Source: an uncultured Desulfobacter sp. (GTDB lineage Bacteria; Desulfobacterota; Desulfobacteria; Desulfobacterales; Desulfobacteraceae). From it: a DNA stretch of 64,000 bases. The DNA lies in contig NZ_OY762229.1 of NCBI RefSeq assembly GCF_963665355.1, forward strand, positions 4,030,001 through 4,094,000, written 5' to 3'. Positions 23,357 to 53,163 of the stretch are shown piece after piece. Positions within the stretch are counted from its first letter, which is position 1; every line of letters begins with the position of its first letter. The translations under genes were made by a program, and so were the position numbers. The notes under the pieces are model-generated. The model was given only the letters and a program-made list of their open reading frames with translations. It had not been told where the DNA came from and did no database searches.

Positions 23357-26300
23357 GTGGTGTCCACGCTTTCCTGGCTGCACCTGTCCGATCTTCACTA
23401 CGGCAAACCCCAAGATGCCTGGGATGCCGAACCTATTTTGAAAGACCTTATAAACGACCTGAAACTTTTGGAAGAGGATCATGGGCTGTGTCCGGATCTC
23501 ATTTTTTTCAGCGGCGATCTGGCCTTCGGTCAAATGGGGCCTGAACCGGGAAAAAATTTAAAAGATCAGTATGAAGGCGTTGCTAAATTTTTGGAGCAGG
23601 TAAGAACCGTTTTTTCAAAGCCGGTTCCCAAAACGCATATCTTTCTTGTGCCGGGGAACCATGATGTGAATCAAAAACGTGTGGGTAAAATGTCCACTAT
23701 GTTTATTGACAGCCTGGACGATCCGGAGAGTATCTATAATTTCATGGCCGGTGGAGGAGATGACTGGAACCGGGTTATGGACCGCCTGGAAGACTATCGT
23801 AGTTTTTTGAAAAATTTCGGTAACTCTGTTCTGCTCCAGGATCCCGAGCGCTTGACCTACGGCACCACTGTGAAGATCAACCATATCCATGTGGGGATTG
23901 CCGGGTTCAACACGGTCTGGAGCAGCGGAAGAAGCAGCAAAGAGGAAAACGGTAAACTCCGGGTGGCCTGGAAATGGCAAAATACAAGGGTTCAAAAGGA
24001 AATGGAAAATGCTGATGTCAAGATCGCCTTGTTCCATCATCCTGTGTCTTGGGGCGTCGAAGCAGACAAAGCCTTTGCCGATGATAAACTGAGAAATGAG
24101 TTTCATTTCATTTTATCCGGCCATGAACACAAAACAGCAGTTACGTCTTATGCTAATGGCCGTTCCGTTATTTCCTCCTACGCCTGCTACCATCGTTCCC
24201 AGGGTAGCGGGTACAACATCTGCTGCCTGAATTTTGAAAATCAGACGGGTGAGGTTCATTTAAGGAAATACAGCGACGAGGACGGAGGCGGCTGGGTCCG
24301 CAGGATTACACCCAAGGCCCCGGATGGGCGGTATCATCTGGAACATCTGGACAAGTGGATGCCGAAGATCTCATTACCCAAAGCCTCAACTCCGGATACT
24401 GATGCGTCACCTGCACCTTCCACTCCGAACCCGGAGTTTGAAGGGCAACTGGCTCTCTATAAAAGCAGGGCAGTCTCCCTGTATGAAAAACTGCCCATGA
24501 TCGGGTTCGGTTCCCGGCTGCGGGTCTCCATTCGCATTGAGGATATTTACATGCCCCTGCATGCCATGGTGGATGATGCTGTCCAGTCCGGGGAGTGCTA
24601 TGCTGATGCCGATGATGCGGTCGAGTGCCTGGAAAAATTGGGGAGAAACACTCAGATTTCCATTCCCGACGCCTTTCAGGTCTGCCTGGAGAAAAATAGC
24701 CGGGGCGTTGTTATCTTAGGTGATCCGGGTTCCGGTAAAACCACCCATTTAAAGCGCCTGCTTTTGTGGGCGCTGTCCAAAAATTATGAAACCATCGGGT
24801 TGCCGGCAGGCATTCTCCCCGTGTTCCTGCCCCTGCGCGAACTTAAAGATTCAAACATCAAAAATTTTATTTATGGCCGTATGGCTGATGCCGGTCTTGA
24901 GATGACAAAGGAATTTACGGACCGGCTGCTGGATCATCATCCGGTACTTTTGCTGTTCGACGGCCTGGATGAAATCCAGAATACGAAACTGCGGGTTGAA
25001 GCGGCCCGCAATATTGCCCGGTTCATGAACGGCCGCAATCAGCTGTATGCCGCCGTGACCTGCCGTTTTGCGGGTTATACGGCCACGGCCCGGCTGGAGA
25101 ATGAGTTTATGGAGCTGCACCTGCGTCCTTTGTCACAGGATCAGGCCCACGACTTTATCCGCACCTGGTATCGGCTTGTGGAAACTGCAGACAACAGTGA
25201 TCAGCTTCAGGCCCGGGATATTGCCGGCAAGAAGGCAGACGACCTGATTGACAGCCTGTCATCCGATGATTTCAGATCCGGCCGGGTCTTTGAAATGACC
25301 CGCAATCCCCTGCTGTTAACCAATATCTGCCTGGTTCACCGGGACGGGGGGCGGCTGCCCAGAACCCGGGGCAAATTGTACAGGGCGGCCATGGATGTGC
25401 TGCTGGAATTCTGGCGGGGCTCCAGAGGCATGGAGGTCCGCATCGGTGCGGATCTGGGCCGGCGGGTCCTTCAGCCCGTGGCGCTTTGGATGCACCAGGA
25501 GGAGAACCGGATCCGGGCCTGTGCCGACGAGCTTGCGCCGGTGCTGGAAAAGGCTTTGGAAAAGGTTCGGTGGCCCCACGGATCTGGAAGGGATTTTCTG
25601 CGCATGGTCCGGGATGACACAGGGCTGCTGACGGGGTGGGGAAGCGACACCTACGGGTTTATGCACCTGGGATTCCAGGAGTACCTGGCCGCCTGCCAGA
25701 TCCGCAGCCTTTCCTTTGAAGATGAGAATGTCCTGGCCCAATTGGCGGAACACTGGGGCCAGTCCTGGTGGCAGGAGGTGATCCTGCTGCTGGTGGGCCT
25801 GGAGGAACCGTCAAGGTTCAAGGCCTTCATGGCACAGGTGGTCCAGCTGCCCTCATTTTCCGATAATCCTGAGATAGCTGAGCGCTGCCTGGAGGATGCT
25901 GCGGAAATTGACTGGACTCCGTTTTTGGACCTGCTGGCCGCAGAACCGGGTAAAGATTCTAAATTGTGGGACCGGCAACTGACGGCCCTGAAAATCCTTG
26001 ACCGGCATGCCAAAGAGAGGCTTAAACCTTTAACCGGTGACCTTGAAAATCATCCCATGCCGCAGATCCGTCAACGGTTCTCGGCAGAGCATCTCCGCCA
26101 GGACAATGAGGTACTAATTCACGGAGACATTCAATATGAGATGGTGAGAATTCCGGGGGGAAGGATCACCATAGAATCCTCCGAATTTACAATAGATCCT
26201 TTTTACATGGGGCGCTATCCTGTGACCAACCGCCAGTATGCCTTGTATTTAAAGGCCAACCTCAAGGCCAAAGAGCCGGAATACTGGGGGGATCGGGAAT

Positions 26301-26743
26301 ACAACGGGGAGAGTCAGCCCGTGGTGGGCGTCTCCTGGGATGAAACCCGTGATTTTGCCCAATGGGCCGGGCTTGCACTGCCTTCGGAAGCCCAGTGGGA
26401 ATTTGCCTGCAGGGCCGGGACCATGACCCGGTTTTATACCGGTGATACAGATGAGGATCTGGCACGGGCCGGATGGTATAGGGGGAATTCCGGTGACAAT
26501 TTGCATCCGGTGGGGGAAAAAGAACCTAATGCATACGGACTGTATGATATGCATGGAAATGTATGGGAGTGGACCACAGATAAAATTGGGGGCTCGCTCC
26601 GGGTGATCCGCGGCGGCTCGTTCCTCAATCCGGCTGTGAGCTGCCGGTCTGCTTCCCGCCGCTGCTTCCACCCGTCCGGCCGCGACCGCGACTGGGCGTT
26701 CCGGCTGGTTCTGCTCCCAGGCCGGCAGGACAAGGGCCGGTAG
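23357..26743 (+). CDS. metallophosphoesterase-NACHT-FGE fusion with DGR-like variable C-terminus
   Basis: 1128 residues, GTG start with AAGGAG. Domains: calcineurin-like metallophosphoesterase (residues 5-290: HLSDLHYG with Asp12/His14, FSGDLAFG, VPGNHDV, LSGHEHKT); NACHT NTPase (Walker A GDPGSGKTT at about 455, Walker B LLLFDGLDEIQ at about 530); a helical middle (MHLGFQEYLAACQI); and a C-terminal formylglycine-generating-enzyme/sulfatase-modifying fold (from YEMVRIPGG at about 926, YPVTNRQYALY, LPSEAQWEFACRAG, GLYDMHGNVWEWT, VIRGGSF). The last ~45 residues match the variable C-type-lectin face of diversity-generating retroelement targets. Architecture suggests an NLR-like sensor: phosphoesterase effector, NACHT switch, variable ligand-binding end. 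No reverse transcriptase is in the window. Confidence 0.88.
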   Translation: MVSTLSWLHLSDLHYGKPQDAWDAEPILKDLINDLKLLEEDHGLCPDLIFFSGDLAFGQMGPEPGKNLKDQYEGVAKFLEQVRTVFSKPVPKTHIFLVPGNHDVNQKRVGKMSTMFIDSLDDPESIYNFMAGGGDDWNRVMDRLEDYRSFLKNFGNSVLLQDPERLTYGTTVKINHIHVGIAGFNTVWSSGRSSKEENGKLRVAWKWQNTRVQKEMENADVKIALFHHPVSWGVEADKAFADDKLRNEFHFILSGHEHKTAVTSYANGRSVISSYACYHRSQGSGYNICCLNFENQTGEVHLRKYSDEDGGGWVRRITPKAPDGRYHLEHLDKWMPKISLPKASTPDTDASPAPSTPNPEFEGQLALYKSRAVSLYEKLPMIGFGSRLRVSIRIEDIYMPLHAMVDDAVQSGECYADADDAVECLEKLGRNTQISIPDAFQVCLEKNSRGVVILGDPGSGKTTHLKRLLLWALSKNYETIGLPAGILPVFLPLRELKDSNIKNFIYGRMADAGLEMTKEFTDRLLDHHPVLLLFDGLDEIQNTKLRVEAARNIARFMNGRNQLYAAVTCRFAGYTATARLENEFMELHLRPLSQDQAHDFIRTWYRLVETADNSDQLQARDIAGKKADDLIDSLSSDDFRSGRVFEMTRNPLLLTNICLVHRDGGRLPRTRGKLYRAAMDVLLEFWRGSRGMEVRIGADLGRRVLQPVALWMHQEENRIRACADELAPVLEKALEKVRWPHGSGRDFLRMVRDDTGLLTGWGSDTYGFMHLGFQEYLAACQIRSLSFEDENVLAQLAEHWGQSWWQEVILLLVGLEEPSRFKAFMAQVVQLPSFSDNPEIAERCLEDAAEIDWTPFLDLLAAEPGKDSKLWDRQLTALKILDRHAKERLKPLTGDLENHPMPQIRQRFSAEHLRQDNEVLIHGDIQYEMVRIPGGRITIESSEFTIDPFYMGRYPVTNRQYALYLKANLKAKEPEYWGDREYNGESQPVVGVSWDETRDFAQWAGLALPSEAQWEFACRAGTMTRFYTGDTDEDLARAGWYRGNSGDNLHPVGEKEPNAYGLYDMHGNVWEWTTDKIGGSLRVIRGGSFLNPAVSCRSASRRCFHPSGRDRDWAFRLVLLPGRQDKGR
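26611..26743 (+). other. candidate DGR variable region
   Basis: Codes for RGGSFLNPAVSCRSASRRC and the following FHPSGRDRDWAFRLVL. Codons at positions that are Asn (AAC) in many DGR templates are here NNC (TTC, CTC, AGC, TGC, TCC, CGC, CAC, GGC, GAC). Only six adenines occur in 26611-26700, as expected if template adenines were randomised. The template repeat itself is not in the window. Confidence 0.6.
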
Positions 26744-26792: not shown

Positions 26793-26883
26793 GGAAAATA
26801 TAGAATATTCAGGAGAAGATTATGTCCGTTCAGCATACATTGACTGCATAAAAGTCATTATTGAAAAGGAAGGAATGAAGCCC

Positions 26884-26961
26884 ATGGCGAGCTTAACAAT
26901 AAGAAATATTGATGAGTCTCTCAAAGCAACTCTTAGAAGGTGGCCACCATCTCATCAATGA
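26884..26961 (+). pseudogene. truncated FitA/VapB-like ribbon-helix-helix antitoxin
   Basis: Begins MASLTIRNIDESLKATLRR, the DNA-binding N-terminus of FitA-type antitoxins, then switches to WPPSHQ and stops. The remaining ~60 residues and any PIN toxin are absent. AAGGAAGGA precedes the ATG. Confidence 0.6.
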
Positions 26962-49278: not shown

Positions 49279-49396
49279 GTACCTCAACATGCTTAAGACC
49301 ACTAGCCAGTAGTACTTGTTAGTACTGTCAAGTTGTAATATCAAATTTATTAGCCATTTATTGTGTTGTGTTGTTTGGAAGGCTGTGTATTGTCAA

Positions 49397-50800
49397 ATGG
49401 ATTCGGTTTTAAAACAAGTCAAATTACATATTAAAGAGTCAGTCCCGGACCATTGTTACCGCATGTGGATTGAACCTGTCACGTTATCTGCCCAGGATGC
49501 TGAAAAAATTGTCCTGGCCGTGCCCAATGAATACTATGTTAAACGGCTCAAGGAAAACTATCTGGGCTATTTTGAAGAGGGTTTTTTAAGTCAGGGCCAA
49601 AAAGTCAGCATTGAATTCAAGGTATACAAAAAAATAAGAAGTTCAGATGAGATTAATTTTGATTTCATGCCGGCTCAAAATACAACCAGTGCAATGCCTG
49701 CCATTCCGGCCGCCTTTGGCATGCCCTCACAATATCATCCGCATCTGCCGGGCATGACACCGGCATTTCATTGCGGACGCATGCTTAAAAAGAATTTTAC
49801 ATTTGATGATTTTGTTGTGGGGGATAACTCCAGCTTTGCATATAAGGCATCTTTATGTCTGGCCCAGGGTACACTCAACGGGACAGGTGTCCTTTTTCTT
49901 CAAGGCAAAACAGGCCTTGGTAAAAGTCATTTATCCCAGGCCGTGGGGCATCATATGCTGGCCCACAACGTAAACCAGCGTGTTTTTTATGTTACAGCCG
50001 AAGATTTTACCAATGAAATGATCTATTCCTTGAAAAGCAACAGCATTGCCCAGTTCAAGGAGAAATACCGTCTTAAATGTGATGTGCTGATCCTGGAAGA
50101 TGTCCATTTCTTAACTGGCAAGACCGCCACCCAGAAAGAGCTTGCCATGACCCTGGACTATCTGATTGATGCGGATAAGAAAATTATATTTTCAGGCTGT
50201 GAACGGCCTGATGAAATCCCAAAGCTGAATGAAAACTTGAAATCCAGGTTGAATATGGGGATTGTCACGGAGATCAAATCACCTGATTTCGGCACCCGGG
50301 TTAAAATTTTAAATCGGAAAGCCAAGGGCATTCAGTGTATTTTACCCACCCCTGTGACCGAATATATTGCCCAGGAAGCGTGTGACGATGTCCGCCAGCT
50401 TGAAAGTGCGCTTCTGGGGGTTGTTACCAGGGGCCGGCTTATGGACCGGAAGATTGATATTGAGCTTGCCAGGCAGGTACTCGAAAAAATGAGCGGGGCA
50501 CGCAAGCAGGTAACCATTGATCTGATCAAAAAACTGGTATGTGAAGCATTTGATGTCTCCGAACAGGAGTTGGTGTCTAAATCCAGGCAACACCGCATTG
50601 TCAAGCCCCGACAGGTGGCGATTTTTTTATCAAAACAGTATACGGACCAGCCCATTAAGACCATTGGTGCCAGTTTCAAGCGTTACCATGCCACTGCTAT
50701 CTATTCTATCAATGCCGTTGAAAAGCAAATGAAGCAAAAAGGGCAGATTTACGAGCAGGTCAGGTATCTGACTAGTAAGCTTGAATCCGGTAGTTTTTAA
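49397..50800 (+). CDS. divergent DnaA-like initiator ATPase, copy 1
   Basis: 467 residues from ATG 49397. Domain I (VKLHIKESVPDHCYRMWIEPV) and a short variable linker (about 80-120) lead to a conserved LPGMTPAFHCGRMLKKNFTFDDF. The AAA+ core has Walker A GKTGLGKSH, Walker B VLILEDVHF (Glu where DnaA has Asp of LIDD), Arg finger LKSRLNMG and sensor II DVRQLES. The domain IV helix reads KRYHATAIYS in place of the usual GRDHTTVLHA. The start is uncertain: codons just upstream (WKAVYCQ) are conserved among copies. Three such genes lie in tandem. It may initiate replication with altered site preference, or regulate. Confidence 0.85.
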   Translation: MDSVLKQVKLHIKESVPDHCYRMWIEPVTLSAQDAEKIVLAVPNEYYVKRLKENYLGYFEEGFLSQGQKVSIEFKVYKKIRSSDEINFDFMPAQNTTSAMPAIPAAFGMPSQYHPHLPGMTPAFHCGRMLKKNFTFDDFVVGDNSSFAYKASLCLAQGTLNGTGVLFLQGKTGLGKSHLSQAVGHHMLAHNVNQRVFYVTAEDFTNEMIYSLKSNSIAQFKEKYRLKCDVLILEDVHFLTGKTATQKELAMTLDYLIDADKKIIFSGCERPDEIPKLNENLKSRLNMGIVTEIKSPDFGTRVKILNRKAKGIQCILPTPVTEYIAQEACDDVRQLESALLGVVTRGRLMDRKIDIELARQVLEKMSGARKQVTIDLIKKLVCEAFDVSEQELVSKSRQHRIVKPRQVAIFLSKQYTDQPIKTIGASFKRYHATAIYSINAVEKQMKQKGQIYEQVRYLTSKLESGSF

Positions 50801-51636: not shown

Positions 51637-51774
51637 TAGGCCACCATGCTGAACGTGTATACTAACATACTGAAATCATTATAACCAATTAATTACAAAA
51701 TCAAACCTCTTAAGCCGTGTTCCTTTGTCTTGGACGCTTTGCTTTGTGTTGTTTGGGAAGCTGTGTATTGTTTG

Positions 51775-53163
51775 ATGGATTCTATTTTAAAAGAAGTCAA
51801 GTTGCATATTAAAGACTGTGTGCCGGACCATTTCTACCGCATGTGGATTGAACCTGTTACATTCTCTGTCCATGATGGTGGACGTGTTGTCCTGGCTGTG
51901 CCCAATGAATTTTATGTCAGGCGGCTCAAAGAAAACTATCTGGTGTATTTTGAAGAGGGGTTTTTGCGTCTGGGGCAAAAAGTCAGTGTTGAATTCAAAA
52001 CATACAATAAAAAAATGAATTTAAGGTCTTTAAATGCACAAATCCCAAACGGCGCACCGATTGCCATTCCGGTACCCATTCGTGTGTCATCTGACTTTCA
52101 TCCACAACTGCCCGGTATGACACCTGCATTTAATTGCGGGCGTATGCTTAAAAAGAATTTTACATTTGATGATTTTGTTGTGGGGGATAACTCCAGCTTT
52201 GCATATACGGCCTCTCTATGTCTGGCCCAGGGCAATCTCAATGGGGCTGGTGTACTATTTCTTCTGGGTAAAACAGGTCTTGGCAAAAGCCATCTGTCCC
52301 AGGCTGTGGGCCACCATATGCTGTCCCATGACGTGGCTCAGCAGGTTTTTTACGTCACGGCTGAAGATTTTACCAATGAAATGATCTACTCTCTGAGGAA
52401 TAAGAACATTGATCAGTTTAAAGAAAAATACCGGCGCAAATGTGATGTTCTGATCCTGGAGGATGTCCATTTTCTGGCCGGCAAGACCGCCACCCAGAAA
52501 GAGCTTGCCATGACCCTGGATTATTTGATTGATGCAGACAAGAAAATTATATTTTCAGGCTGCGAGCGGCCTGATGAAATCCCTCATTTAAATGAAAGCC
52601 TGAAATCCAGACTGAATATGGGGATTGTTACGGAGATCAAGGCTCCTGATTTTGCTACCCGGATTAAAATCTTAAATAAAAAGTCCAAATCCATGCAGTG
52701 CATTTTACCCACCCCTGTGACCGAATATATTGCCCAGGAAGCGTGTGATGATGTCCGGCAGCTTGAAAGTGCTCTTTTAGGAGTTGTGACCCGGGGGCGG
52801 CTCATGAACCGGAATATCGACATGGAGCTAGCCCAAAGCGTTTTGGAAAAAATGATTGGGACACGCAAACACATTACCATTGATCTGATCAAAAAATTGG
52901 TTTGTGAAACCTTTGGCGTTTCCGAACAGGAACTTGTGTCCAAGTCCAGGAAACACAATATTGTCAAACCCCGCCAGATTGCCATTTTTCTGTCAAAACA
53001 GTATACAGACCAGCCCATAAAGAAAATTGGTGCAAGTTTTAAACGCTACCATGCCACAGCCATCTATTCGGTAAATGAGGTTGAAAAGGCCATGAAGGAA
53101 AAAGGCCAGCTTTACGAACAGGTCCGGTATTTGTCCAACAAACTTGAATCAGGCAGATTTTAA
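51775..53163 (+). CDS. divergent DnaA-like initiator ATPase, copy 2
   Basis: 462 residues from ATG 51775, colinear with copies 1 and 3 and very similar except in the linker (GAPIAIPVPIRVSSDFHPQ). Shares every departure from ordinary DnaA: LILEDVHF Walker B, SGCERPDEIP sensor I region, and recognition helix KRYHATAIYS. Nucleotide-binding GKTGLGKSH is intact, so ATPase activity is expected. The upstream in-frame codons WEAVYCL are again conserved. Copies 2 and 3 resemble each other more in their leaders than either does copy 1, suggesting two successive duplications. Confidence 0.85.
   Translation: MDSILKEVKLHIKDCVPDHFYRMWIEPVTFSVHDGGRVVLAVPNEFYVRRLKENYLVYFEEGFLRLGQKVSVEFKTYNKKMNLRSLNAQIPNGAPIAIPVPIRVSSDFHPQLPGMTPAFNCGRMLKKNFTFDDFVVGDNSSFAYTASLCLAQGNLNGAGVLFLLGKTGLGKSHLSQAVGHHMLSHDVAQQVFYVTAEDFTNEMIYSLRNKNIDQFKEKYRRKCDVLILEDVHFLAGKTATQKELAMTLDYLIDADKKIIFSGCERPDEIPHLNESLKSRLNMGIVTEIKAPDFATRIKILNKKSKSMQCILPTPVTEYIAQEACDDVRQLESALLGVVTRGRLMNRNIDMELAQSVLEKMIGTRKHITIDLIKKLVCETFGVSEQELVSKSRKHNIVKPRQIAIFLSKQYTDQPIKKIGASFKRYHATAIYSVNEVEKAMKEKGQLYEQVRYLSNKLESGRF

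Follow-up and report, generated by a model that had tools for sequence, protein, structure and literature searches.

A metallophosphoesterase-NACHT-FGE receptor gene of an uncultured Desulfobacter sp. as a probable orphan target of a diversity-generating retroelement

Introduction

The stretch of DNA analysed here, referred to below as the window, comprises 64,000 nucleotides from an uncultured Desulfobacter sp. (NCBI RefSeq assembly GCF_963665355.1, contig NZ_OY762229.1, positions 4030001-4094000) and contains a gene for a protein with an N-terminal calcineurin-like metallophosphoesterase domain, a NACHT NTPase domain and a C-terminal FGE domain of the C-type-lectin (CLec) fold. Judged from sequence comparison, the C-terminal segment of the FGE domain is almost certainly, by origin, the variable region (VR) of a diversity-generating retroelement (DGR). 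The reading that we favour, and consider likely, is that of an orphan DGR-diversified sensor of an NLR-like defence receptor, the tip of which is now fixed and inherited. The proposal of the initial annotation that the FGE tail is a DGR target was borne out by the variation among orthologs, by the adenine columns of the template found next to an ortholog in a relative (locus L230) and by comparison with a control FGE gene.

Architecture of the receptor gene

The gene was found to be a single intact open reading frame with a GTG start, encoding 1128 aa (Table 1). The matches to Metallophos, NACHT and FGE-sulfatase all exceed the Pfam cut-offs. The protein contains the motifs DLH, GDLA, GNHD and GHEH, which we take to be those of the phosphoesterase, and its NACHT domain contains GDPGSGKT and LLLFDGLDE, presumably Walker A and Walker B, respectively. 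The layout is NLR-like, with a putative effector at the N-terminus, a NACHT domain carrying both Walker motifs and a putative sensor at the C-terminus. The NLR-like conflict system described in the initial annotation was therefore upheld as regards the make-up of the receptor with its phosphoesterase, the protein partly resembling the validated anti-phage protein DS-8, whereas the sensing of phage is suggested by analogy.

The C-type-lectin (FGE) fold of the domain bearing the VR is supported by Pfam, by sequence matches in the PDB and by modelling. The AlphaFold2 model of aa 930-1128 has a mean pLDDT of 95; Foldseek searches with the model of this domain returned solved FGEs first and the DGR variable protein TvpA (2y3c) at rank 14, while 2y3c was the best PDB match by sequence, ahead by 0.1 bit. 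At the other end of the protein, the NCBIfam model DS8_antiphage (NF053861) matches with its best stretch at aa 9-306 (E 4e-39), and the score over the whole protein, 134 bits, lies below the curated cut-off of 790 bits, so that the protein is not a member of the DS-8 family. In PADLOC it matches the candidate PDC-S60 (E 3e-45). At gathering thresholds Rfam gave no match within the window.

A search of 86 genomes of the family yielded three congener orthologs, 80-82% identical (genomes G012, G016 and G028). The ortholog of G016 begins at a contig start and is covered only from about aa 295, hence the N-terminal part is informed by the other three genes alone.

Table 1. Coordinates of the receptor gene, its parts and the DGR loci discussed (window positions unless a locus is named)
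Feature	Coordinates	Strand	Basis
Metallophosphoesterase-NACHT-FGE receptor gene, probable orphan DGR target	23357..26743	+	Open reading frame, Pfam and NCBIfam matches, orthologs
Calcineurin-like metallophosphoesterase domain, putative effector, aa 8-259	23378..24133	+	Pfam Metallophos, E 5e-12
NACHT NTPase domain, aa 451-605	24707..25171	+	Pfam, E 1e-12
FGE / C-type-lectin-fold putative sensor domain (FGE-sulfatase), aa 941-1118	26177..26710	+	Pfam, E 6.5e-40
Probable DGR variable region; variable codons mainly 26624-26695	26600..26719	+	Ortholog comparison; column match to L230 template adenines
Conserved 3' end of VR, putative segment resembling an initiation-of-mutagenic-homing site	26696..26722	+	Conservation among genes with other FGE parts about 35% identical
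GC-rich inverted repeat 3' of VR, 10-bp stem, 20-nt loop	26753..26792	+	1/100 shuffles reaches the stem
L230 metallophosphoesterase-NACHT-FGE ortholog	L230:148-3651		
L230 HRDC gene	L230:3852-4337		
L230 DGR reverse transcriptase	L230:4334-5344		
L230 template	L230:from 5348		
L025 cis DGR (FGE target, HRDC gene, reverse transcriptase, template)	L025:4447 to about 8930, chromosome near 3.672-3.677 Mb		

Composition and variation of the variable region

The VR occupies the last ~35 codons of the FGE domain and differs in composition from the rest of the gene (72% GC vs 54%). The six adenines counted by the initial annotation in 26611-26700 were exact; adenine makes up 23% of the whole gene, in which 53 of 3298 overlapping 90-nt windows hold six adenines or fewer, as do 0.15% of such windows on the forward strand of the 64-kb stretch. 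The description of the variable codons as almost all NNC was overstated, since of the 17 codons in which the L230 template has an adenine 12 end in C here.

The comparison of the window gene with its three congener orthologs (six pairs; VR segment aa 1084-1116, 33 codons) showed residue differences of 42-52% in the VR segment vs 13-15% in the preceding part of the FGE domain. The VR differences were shifted to codon positions 1 and 2, and double changes at both of these positions with position 3 kept were enriched in the VR in five of the six pairs. Among the columns invariant in the four orthologs adenine was absent from the VR (0/53), compared with 77/328 in the preceding FGE part. When seven VRs of the genus were compared over 120 nt, with the VR of the second G028 gene retained (a near-duplicate of that of G023), a single one of the 66 invariant columns was an adenine, namely the last base.

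An ordinary FGE gene from this genome served as the control; it is present in 17 of the 19 genomes of the genus and was aligned from 15 of the 17 orthologs, L276 and L277 being left out as their match begins one residue later. In four species the equivalent 33 codons of this gene differ by 1.5% (0.015) vs 0.119 in the FGE part before them, with 23 adenines among 78 invariant columns; in the 15 sequences the corresponding values are 5.9% (0.059) and 15.2% (0.152). The control gene thus shows the opposite tendency, which indicates that rapid turnover of this loop is not general to FGE proteins. Set against the relatives and this control, the pattern in the VR goes well past what chance would give.

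Retroelements in relatives

In a sample of the class (389 genomes) relatives of the protein at E <=1e-60 were found in 22 genomes, 18 of them outside the genus, and 20 loci were fetched from these 18. Three of the 20 (L230, L241 and L242) have in cis a DGR reverse transcriptase together with a template/VR pair showing 0 non-adenine mismatches; no reverse transcriptase was seen in the other 17, many of whose contigs are short. The targets of L241 and L242 match the window protein only from about aa 356-364 onward, while L230, an order-level relative, combines in cis an ortholog of the same architecture, an HRDC accessory gene, the reverse transcriptase and the template.

Over 120 nt the L230 template and its VR show 16 mismatches, every one of them at a template adenine. 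In an ungapped alignment of this template with six VRs of the genus (that of the second G028 gene being omitted as a near-duplicate), 23 of the 26 adenine columns were variable, compared with 28 of the 79 non-adenine columns (p=1.7e-6) or, at codon positions 1 and 2, with 10 of 44 (p=7e-8). Similarly, against six template-like sequences from other genera, one of which (G005) is proven by a template/VR pair, the window VR is mismatched at 18-23 of 24-29 adenine sites and at 12-14 of 53-58 others. The derivation of the VR from a template is seen solely through these templates of relatives, in which the differences fall on template adenines. A scan of 28 VR-like segments, two of which are listed twice from overlapping loci and one of which is itself a template, gave four with a template at 0 non-adenine mismatches; for the remaining segments no template was found among the loci fetched for the respective genome. 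Flagged pairs in L231, L238 and L248 were rejected as templates and read as tandem paralogs, simple repeats and a partial gene copy.

A DNA query consisting of the VR only, run on the 19 genomes of the genus, matched the orthologs and in addition other genes, i.e. the second gene of G016, that of G023 and the second gene of G028, with 80-81% identity, although the FGE domains of these genes are only about 35% identical in protein. Past the stop codon lies a GC-rich inverted repeat, at the place where the DGR target of BPP-1 has a hairpin or cruciform. The repeat is a feature of DGR targets and its role at the window locus is putative; it could alternatively serve as a hairpin at the end of the transcript, although a T run is lacking behind it. 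The central 16-mer of the repeat occurs at four of the seven VR loci of the genus (the window locus, both G016 genes and G028) and is absent from G012, G023 and the second G028 gene. If loops may be as long as 60, a repeat stands out (<=3/100 shuffles) behind nine of the 11 VRs tested, L242b being left out owing to the 68 nt left on its contig; with loops up to 25, where L242b is counted, fewer loci stand out.

Search for a template and a reverse transcriptase

The statement of the initial annotation that neither a reverse transcriptase nor a template lies in the window proved correct: the 23 RVT_1 hits of the genome all lie outside it, and no template/VR pair was detected in overlapping 20-kb pieces. 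When a second copy of the VR was sought in the window with adenine mismatches tolerated, the best match had 24 non-adenine mismatches of 100, and a search for reverse transcriptase remnants in the window and in the congener loci L078-L082 gave at best E 1.5.

In the genome as a whole, one of the 23 RVT_1 hits resembles DGR reverse transcriptases at the thresholds used. It belongs to a resident DGR (L025) on the same chromosome at ~3.676 Mb, with a reverse transcriptase carrying YMDD and LGNLTSQ (the latter we take to be the DGR form of the motif), an HRDC gene, a template and an FGE target. Over 70 nt its template differs from the adjoining FGE gene at 17 adenines and at no other base, whereas against the window VR it has 31 non-adenine mismatches of 100, no better than background. 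The genome search suggested by the initial annotation brought up a DGR reverse transcriptase and no near-repeat of the VR with mismatches at adenines only. No cognate template was found in the genome by BLAST with the VR, by BLAST with an inferred template, by the FGE profile or by adenine-tolerant scans around all 23 RVT_1 hits. The inferred-template query did recover a real foreign template, that of G005 from a different genus within the family (E 2e-15), which indicates that the search was fairly sensitive. Within the reach of these searches the genome holds no adenine-biased near-repeat, an outcome that the initial annotation had named as refuting its proposal; this speaks against current service in trans, and the DGR origin of the VR is drawn from the comparison with relatives.

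In the congeners G012, G016, G023 and G028 the inferred-template query found only VRs and no cognate template; at E 1e-25 no DGR-type reverse transcriptase was found in G016, G023 and G028, and the one in G012 goes with another template. A less stringent search brought up one weak match in G028 (27%), whose 16 kb contained no template/VR pair. Of 17 loci passed through a generic finder of template/VR pairs, eight gave pairs, namely the resident DGR and seven more loci from the genus or the family. The five congener loci that bear VRs, L078-L082, gave no pair. Mobile elements were also covered. The list of FGE matches comprised 148 entries after removal of partial and stop-containing matches, and 37 viral-contig stretches were picked from it. 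Exact-pattern scans of viral contigs, which need exact backbone matches, gave no cognate template; nor did the phage collection searched or the plasmid collection, in which the only match (73%) lay on an Acaryochloris plasmid. In the genome collection, a scan by pattern hit only one contig, of Muribaculaceae, and the sequence of that hit led us to regard it as chance.

It was further observed that the L025 template and its VR are unequal in length by a single base towards the 5' side, and that the frame of the target departs from the FGE consensus there; the L025 target may therefore be out of frame. The seven other loci with template/VR pairs are L096, L131, L133, L134, L135, L097 and L098, four of which (L133, L134, L135 and L098) have two or three VRs per template.

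Origin and present state of the variable region

That the VR is orphan in this genome is very likely. The DGR that wrote it would since have been lost or have stayed behind as the gene moved, and loss of the DGR or gene transfer after rewriting is the most likely history. A related VR, that of an FGE protein shared by G023 and G028, differs between the two at 1 of 120 bases within DNA that is 97.5% identical, and so has not been rewritten recently. The loci of the window and of G028 both have a downstream nitroreductase, none of the other flanking genes tested being matched in the congener loci.

Several observations weigh against the reading of an orphan sensor with a fixed tip. The orthologous VRs of the window and of G028, at a locus that is partly shared, still differ at many codons and in DGR style, which implies either that a DGR was active once they had split or that they were acquired separately; the DGR may have been lost in each lineage after use, the gene may have arrived already rewritten, or a visiting DGR may have acted. 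Neither a template for this VR nor a reverse transcriptase serving it was found in the genome, and the complete architecture with a DGR in cis occurs in only one of the 20 order-level loci (L230), many contigs being short. The variation itself is not uniform: the G012-G028 pair has 0/33 double changes, pairs that include G012 show no sparing of VR third positions (0.27-0.33), and in the same pairs the final 12 codons past the VR also differ by half. Adenine-holding columns likewise vary more than others in the FGE portion that precedes the VR (25/90 vs 19/196), so that some of the adenine effect is general, if far weaker. In G012 (21/100 shuffles) and G028 (6/100) the inverted repeat is unconvincing, and the DS-8 match is far under the family cut-off (134 vs 790 bits).

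The alternative that survives best is a travelling DGR, on a plasmid, phage or integrative element, which would occasionally supply reverse transcriptase and template, the orphan VRs being kept as landing sites. It would account for the five VR-bearing genomes of the genus in which the inferred-template query found no cognate template, with orthologous VRs that nevertheless differ in DGR style, and for VRs that keep much of their backbone, mostly with the 3' inverted repeat. However, no such template was found in the viral, phage and plasmid collections searched, which gave only the 73% Acaryochloris match, and the near-identity of the related VR in G023 and G028 argues against recent rewriting. 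This alternative is considered improbable, as is its extension to the genus, in which NLR-like receptors would carry 'landing-pad' VRs with no resident template and have their specificity reset only by a passing DGR. If true, it would mean that immune-receptor repertoires are rewritten by visiting retroelements and not by machinery of their own.

Rewriting of the VR in trans within the cell, by the resident DGR or another in the genome, as the initial annotation had supposed, is very unlikely. A DGR with reverse transcriptase, HRDC gene and template is indeed present on the same chromosome, and trans action has been proposed for other DGRs (Dore et al. 2024, PMC10907252). The template of the resident DGR, however, pairs with its own neighbour and matches the window VR at background level only, so that current service by it was rejected, and no cognate template was found around any of the 23 RVT_1 hits or by the BLAST and FGE-profile searches.

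Ordinary positive selection on the ligand-binding loop, with no retroelement involved, has scarcely any likelihood. C-type-lectin loops are tolerant of substitutions, and these could be favoured in an arms race, but selection leaves unexplained the absence of adenine from the 53 invariant columns, the match of the variable columns to the adenines of a real template and the near-identical VR DNA in otherwise dissimilar genes; the control FGE gene shows no such tendency, and the cis DGR of the L230 ortholog speaks directly against it. Least probable of all is the reading of the protein as an enzyme of the FGE type, instead of a sensor, whose tail happens to be GC-rich. It fits the high GC content of the VR and the strong FGE profile match but explains neither the position-specific variation nor the agreement with a template, and the catalytic-cysteine pattern of FGE seems to be lacking. 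Composition artefact and ordinary divergence alike were rejected on the ortholog pattern, the L230-template columns and the control gene.

Proposed mechanism and relation to known systems

By analogy with NACHT defence proteins, we lean towards a phage-sensing receptor. In the mechanism proposed, phage or another ligand would bind the tip of the FGE domain; the NACHT domain would then oligomerise, acting as the switch that holds the metallophosphoesterase effector, and the latter would act on a nucleotide or another phosphoester. The ligand-binding loop of the sensor would be the VR, written by mutagenic retrohoming, which randomises template adenines as they are copied into the codons of the VR.

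DGR-diversified NACHT-CLec sensors and DGR targets without reverse transcriptase and template are already known. DS-8 is a single metallophosphatase-NACHT protein, validated as anti-phage, in which both domains are described as essential and the substrate as unknown (DefensePredictor, PMC13092281). The window protein likewise joins a metallophosphatase and a NACHT domain in a single chain, and differs from the DS-8 family in that its best-matching stretch is confined to the N-terminal part. Calcineurin-type phosphoesterases and DGRs have been placed in related conflict systems (PMC7159879). NACHT/STAND-CLec (FGE) targets diversified by DGRs, in systems of DGR cassettes with paired targets, were proposed as antigen sensors, the proposal being untested in that account (Dore et al. 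2024, PMC10907252). The central NACHT domain and the C-terminal FGE/CLec fold with its VR are common to these sensors and the window protein, and the target of their DGR 7 joins a cAMP-phosphodiesterase domain and NACHT to a variable CLec (PMC10907252). Unlike the sensors described there (PMC10907252), the window protein has a DS-8-like metallophosphoesterase as its N-terminal domain, with no vWA domain reported by Pfam, and its genome has no detected cognate reverse transcriptase or template.

In Treponema denticola, DGR target genes in isolates without reverse transcriptase and template were read as remnants (PMC4891356). The DGR of this species, with TvpA (2y3c), resembles the present case in the FGE-fold variable protein, the HRDC accessory gene and the targets lacking reverse transcriptase and template, whereas the available text of that report mentions no NACHT or phosphoesterase for its targets and its orphan state occurs within one species (PMC4891356). 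The DGR of Bordetella BPP-1 needs an inverted repeat, forming a hairpin or cruciform, for target recognition (PMC3240598). The GC-rich inverted repeat after the 3' end of the window VR is similar in placement, and differs from that described for BPP-1 in stem, loop and distance, its function being putative (PMC3240598).

The data presented tie the phosphoesterase-NACHT architecture, of which the relative DS-8 is validated as anti-phage, to sensor diversification driven by a retroelement. The L230 locus, having an ortholog of the same architecture with a whole DGR in cis, is a ready system for testing. Several species appear to keep sensors written by a DGR with no template detected, an observation relevant to the question whether orphan receptors retain a useful fixed specificity, like germline-encoded receptors.

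Additional observations

Related genes were met in several other arrangements. In G016 a second NACHT/FGE pair follows the receptor (L078:2750-5805) as two overlapping frames, the FGE frame having a VR of its own; in G012 (L082) the DNA just 3' of the target resembles the start of this second gene of G016. The single-contig genome G268 carries four tandem relatives made up of NACHT/FGE parts with VR-like tails (L231:4452-17649); no template was recognised there in 18 kb, and a DGR reverse transcriptase lies ~1.8 Mb away, with no cognate template in its 1.5-kb flanks. The Desulfosarcina ovata plasmid Do28_1, typed as mobilizable, carries a short FGE gene (L262:6074-6508) whose tail is VR-like, with no annotated reverse transcriptase in the 9.7 kb around that gene.

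In the window itself, a 28-codon frame beginning MKPMASLTIRNIDESLKATL (26875-26961) is cut short just 3' of the receptor gene; it resembles the start of a small antitoxin. Two DnaA-family genes (49316-50800 and 51730-53163), each encoding the full set of three DnaA domains, are close neighbours with the same orientation.

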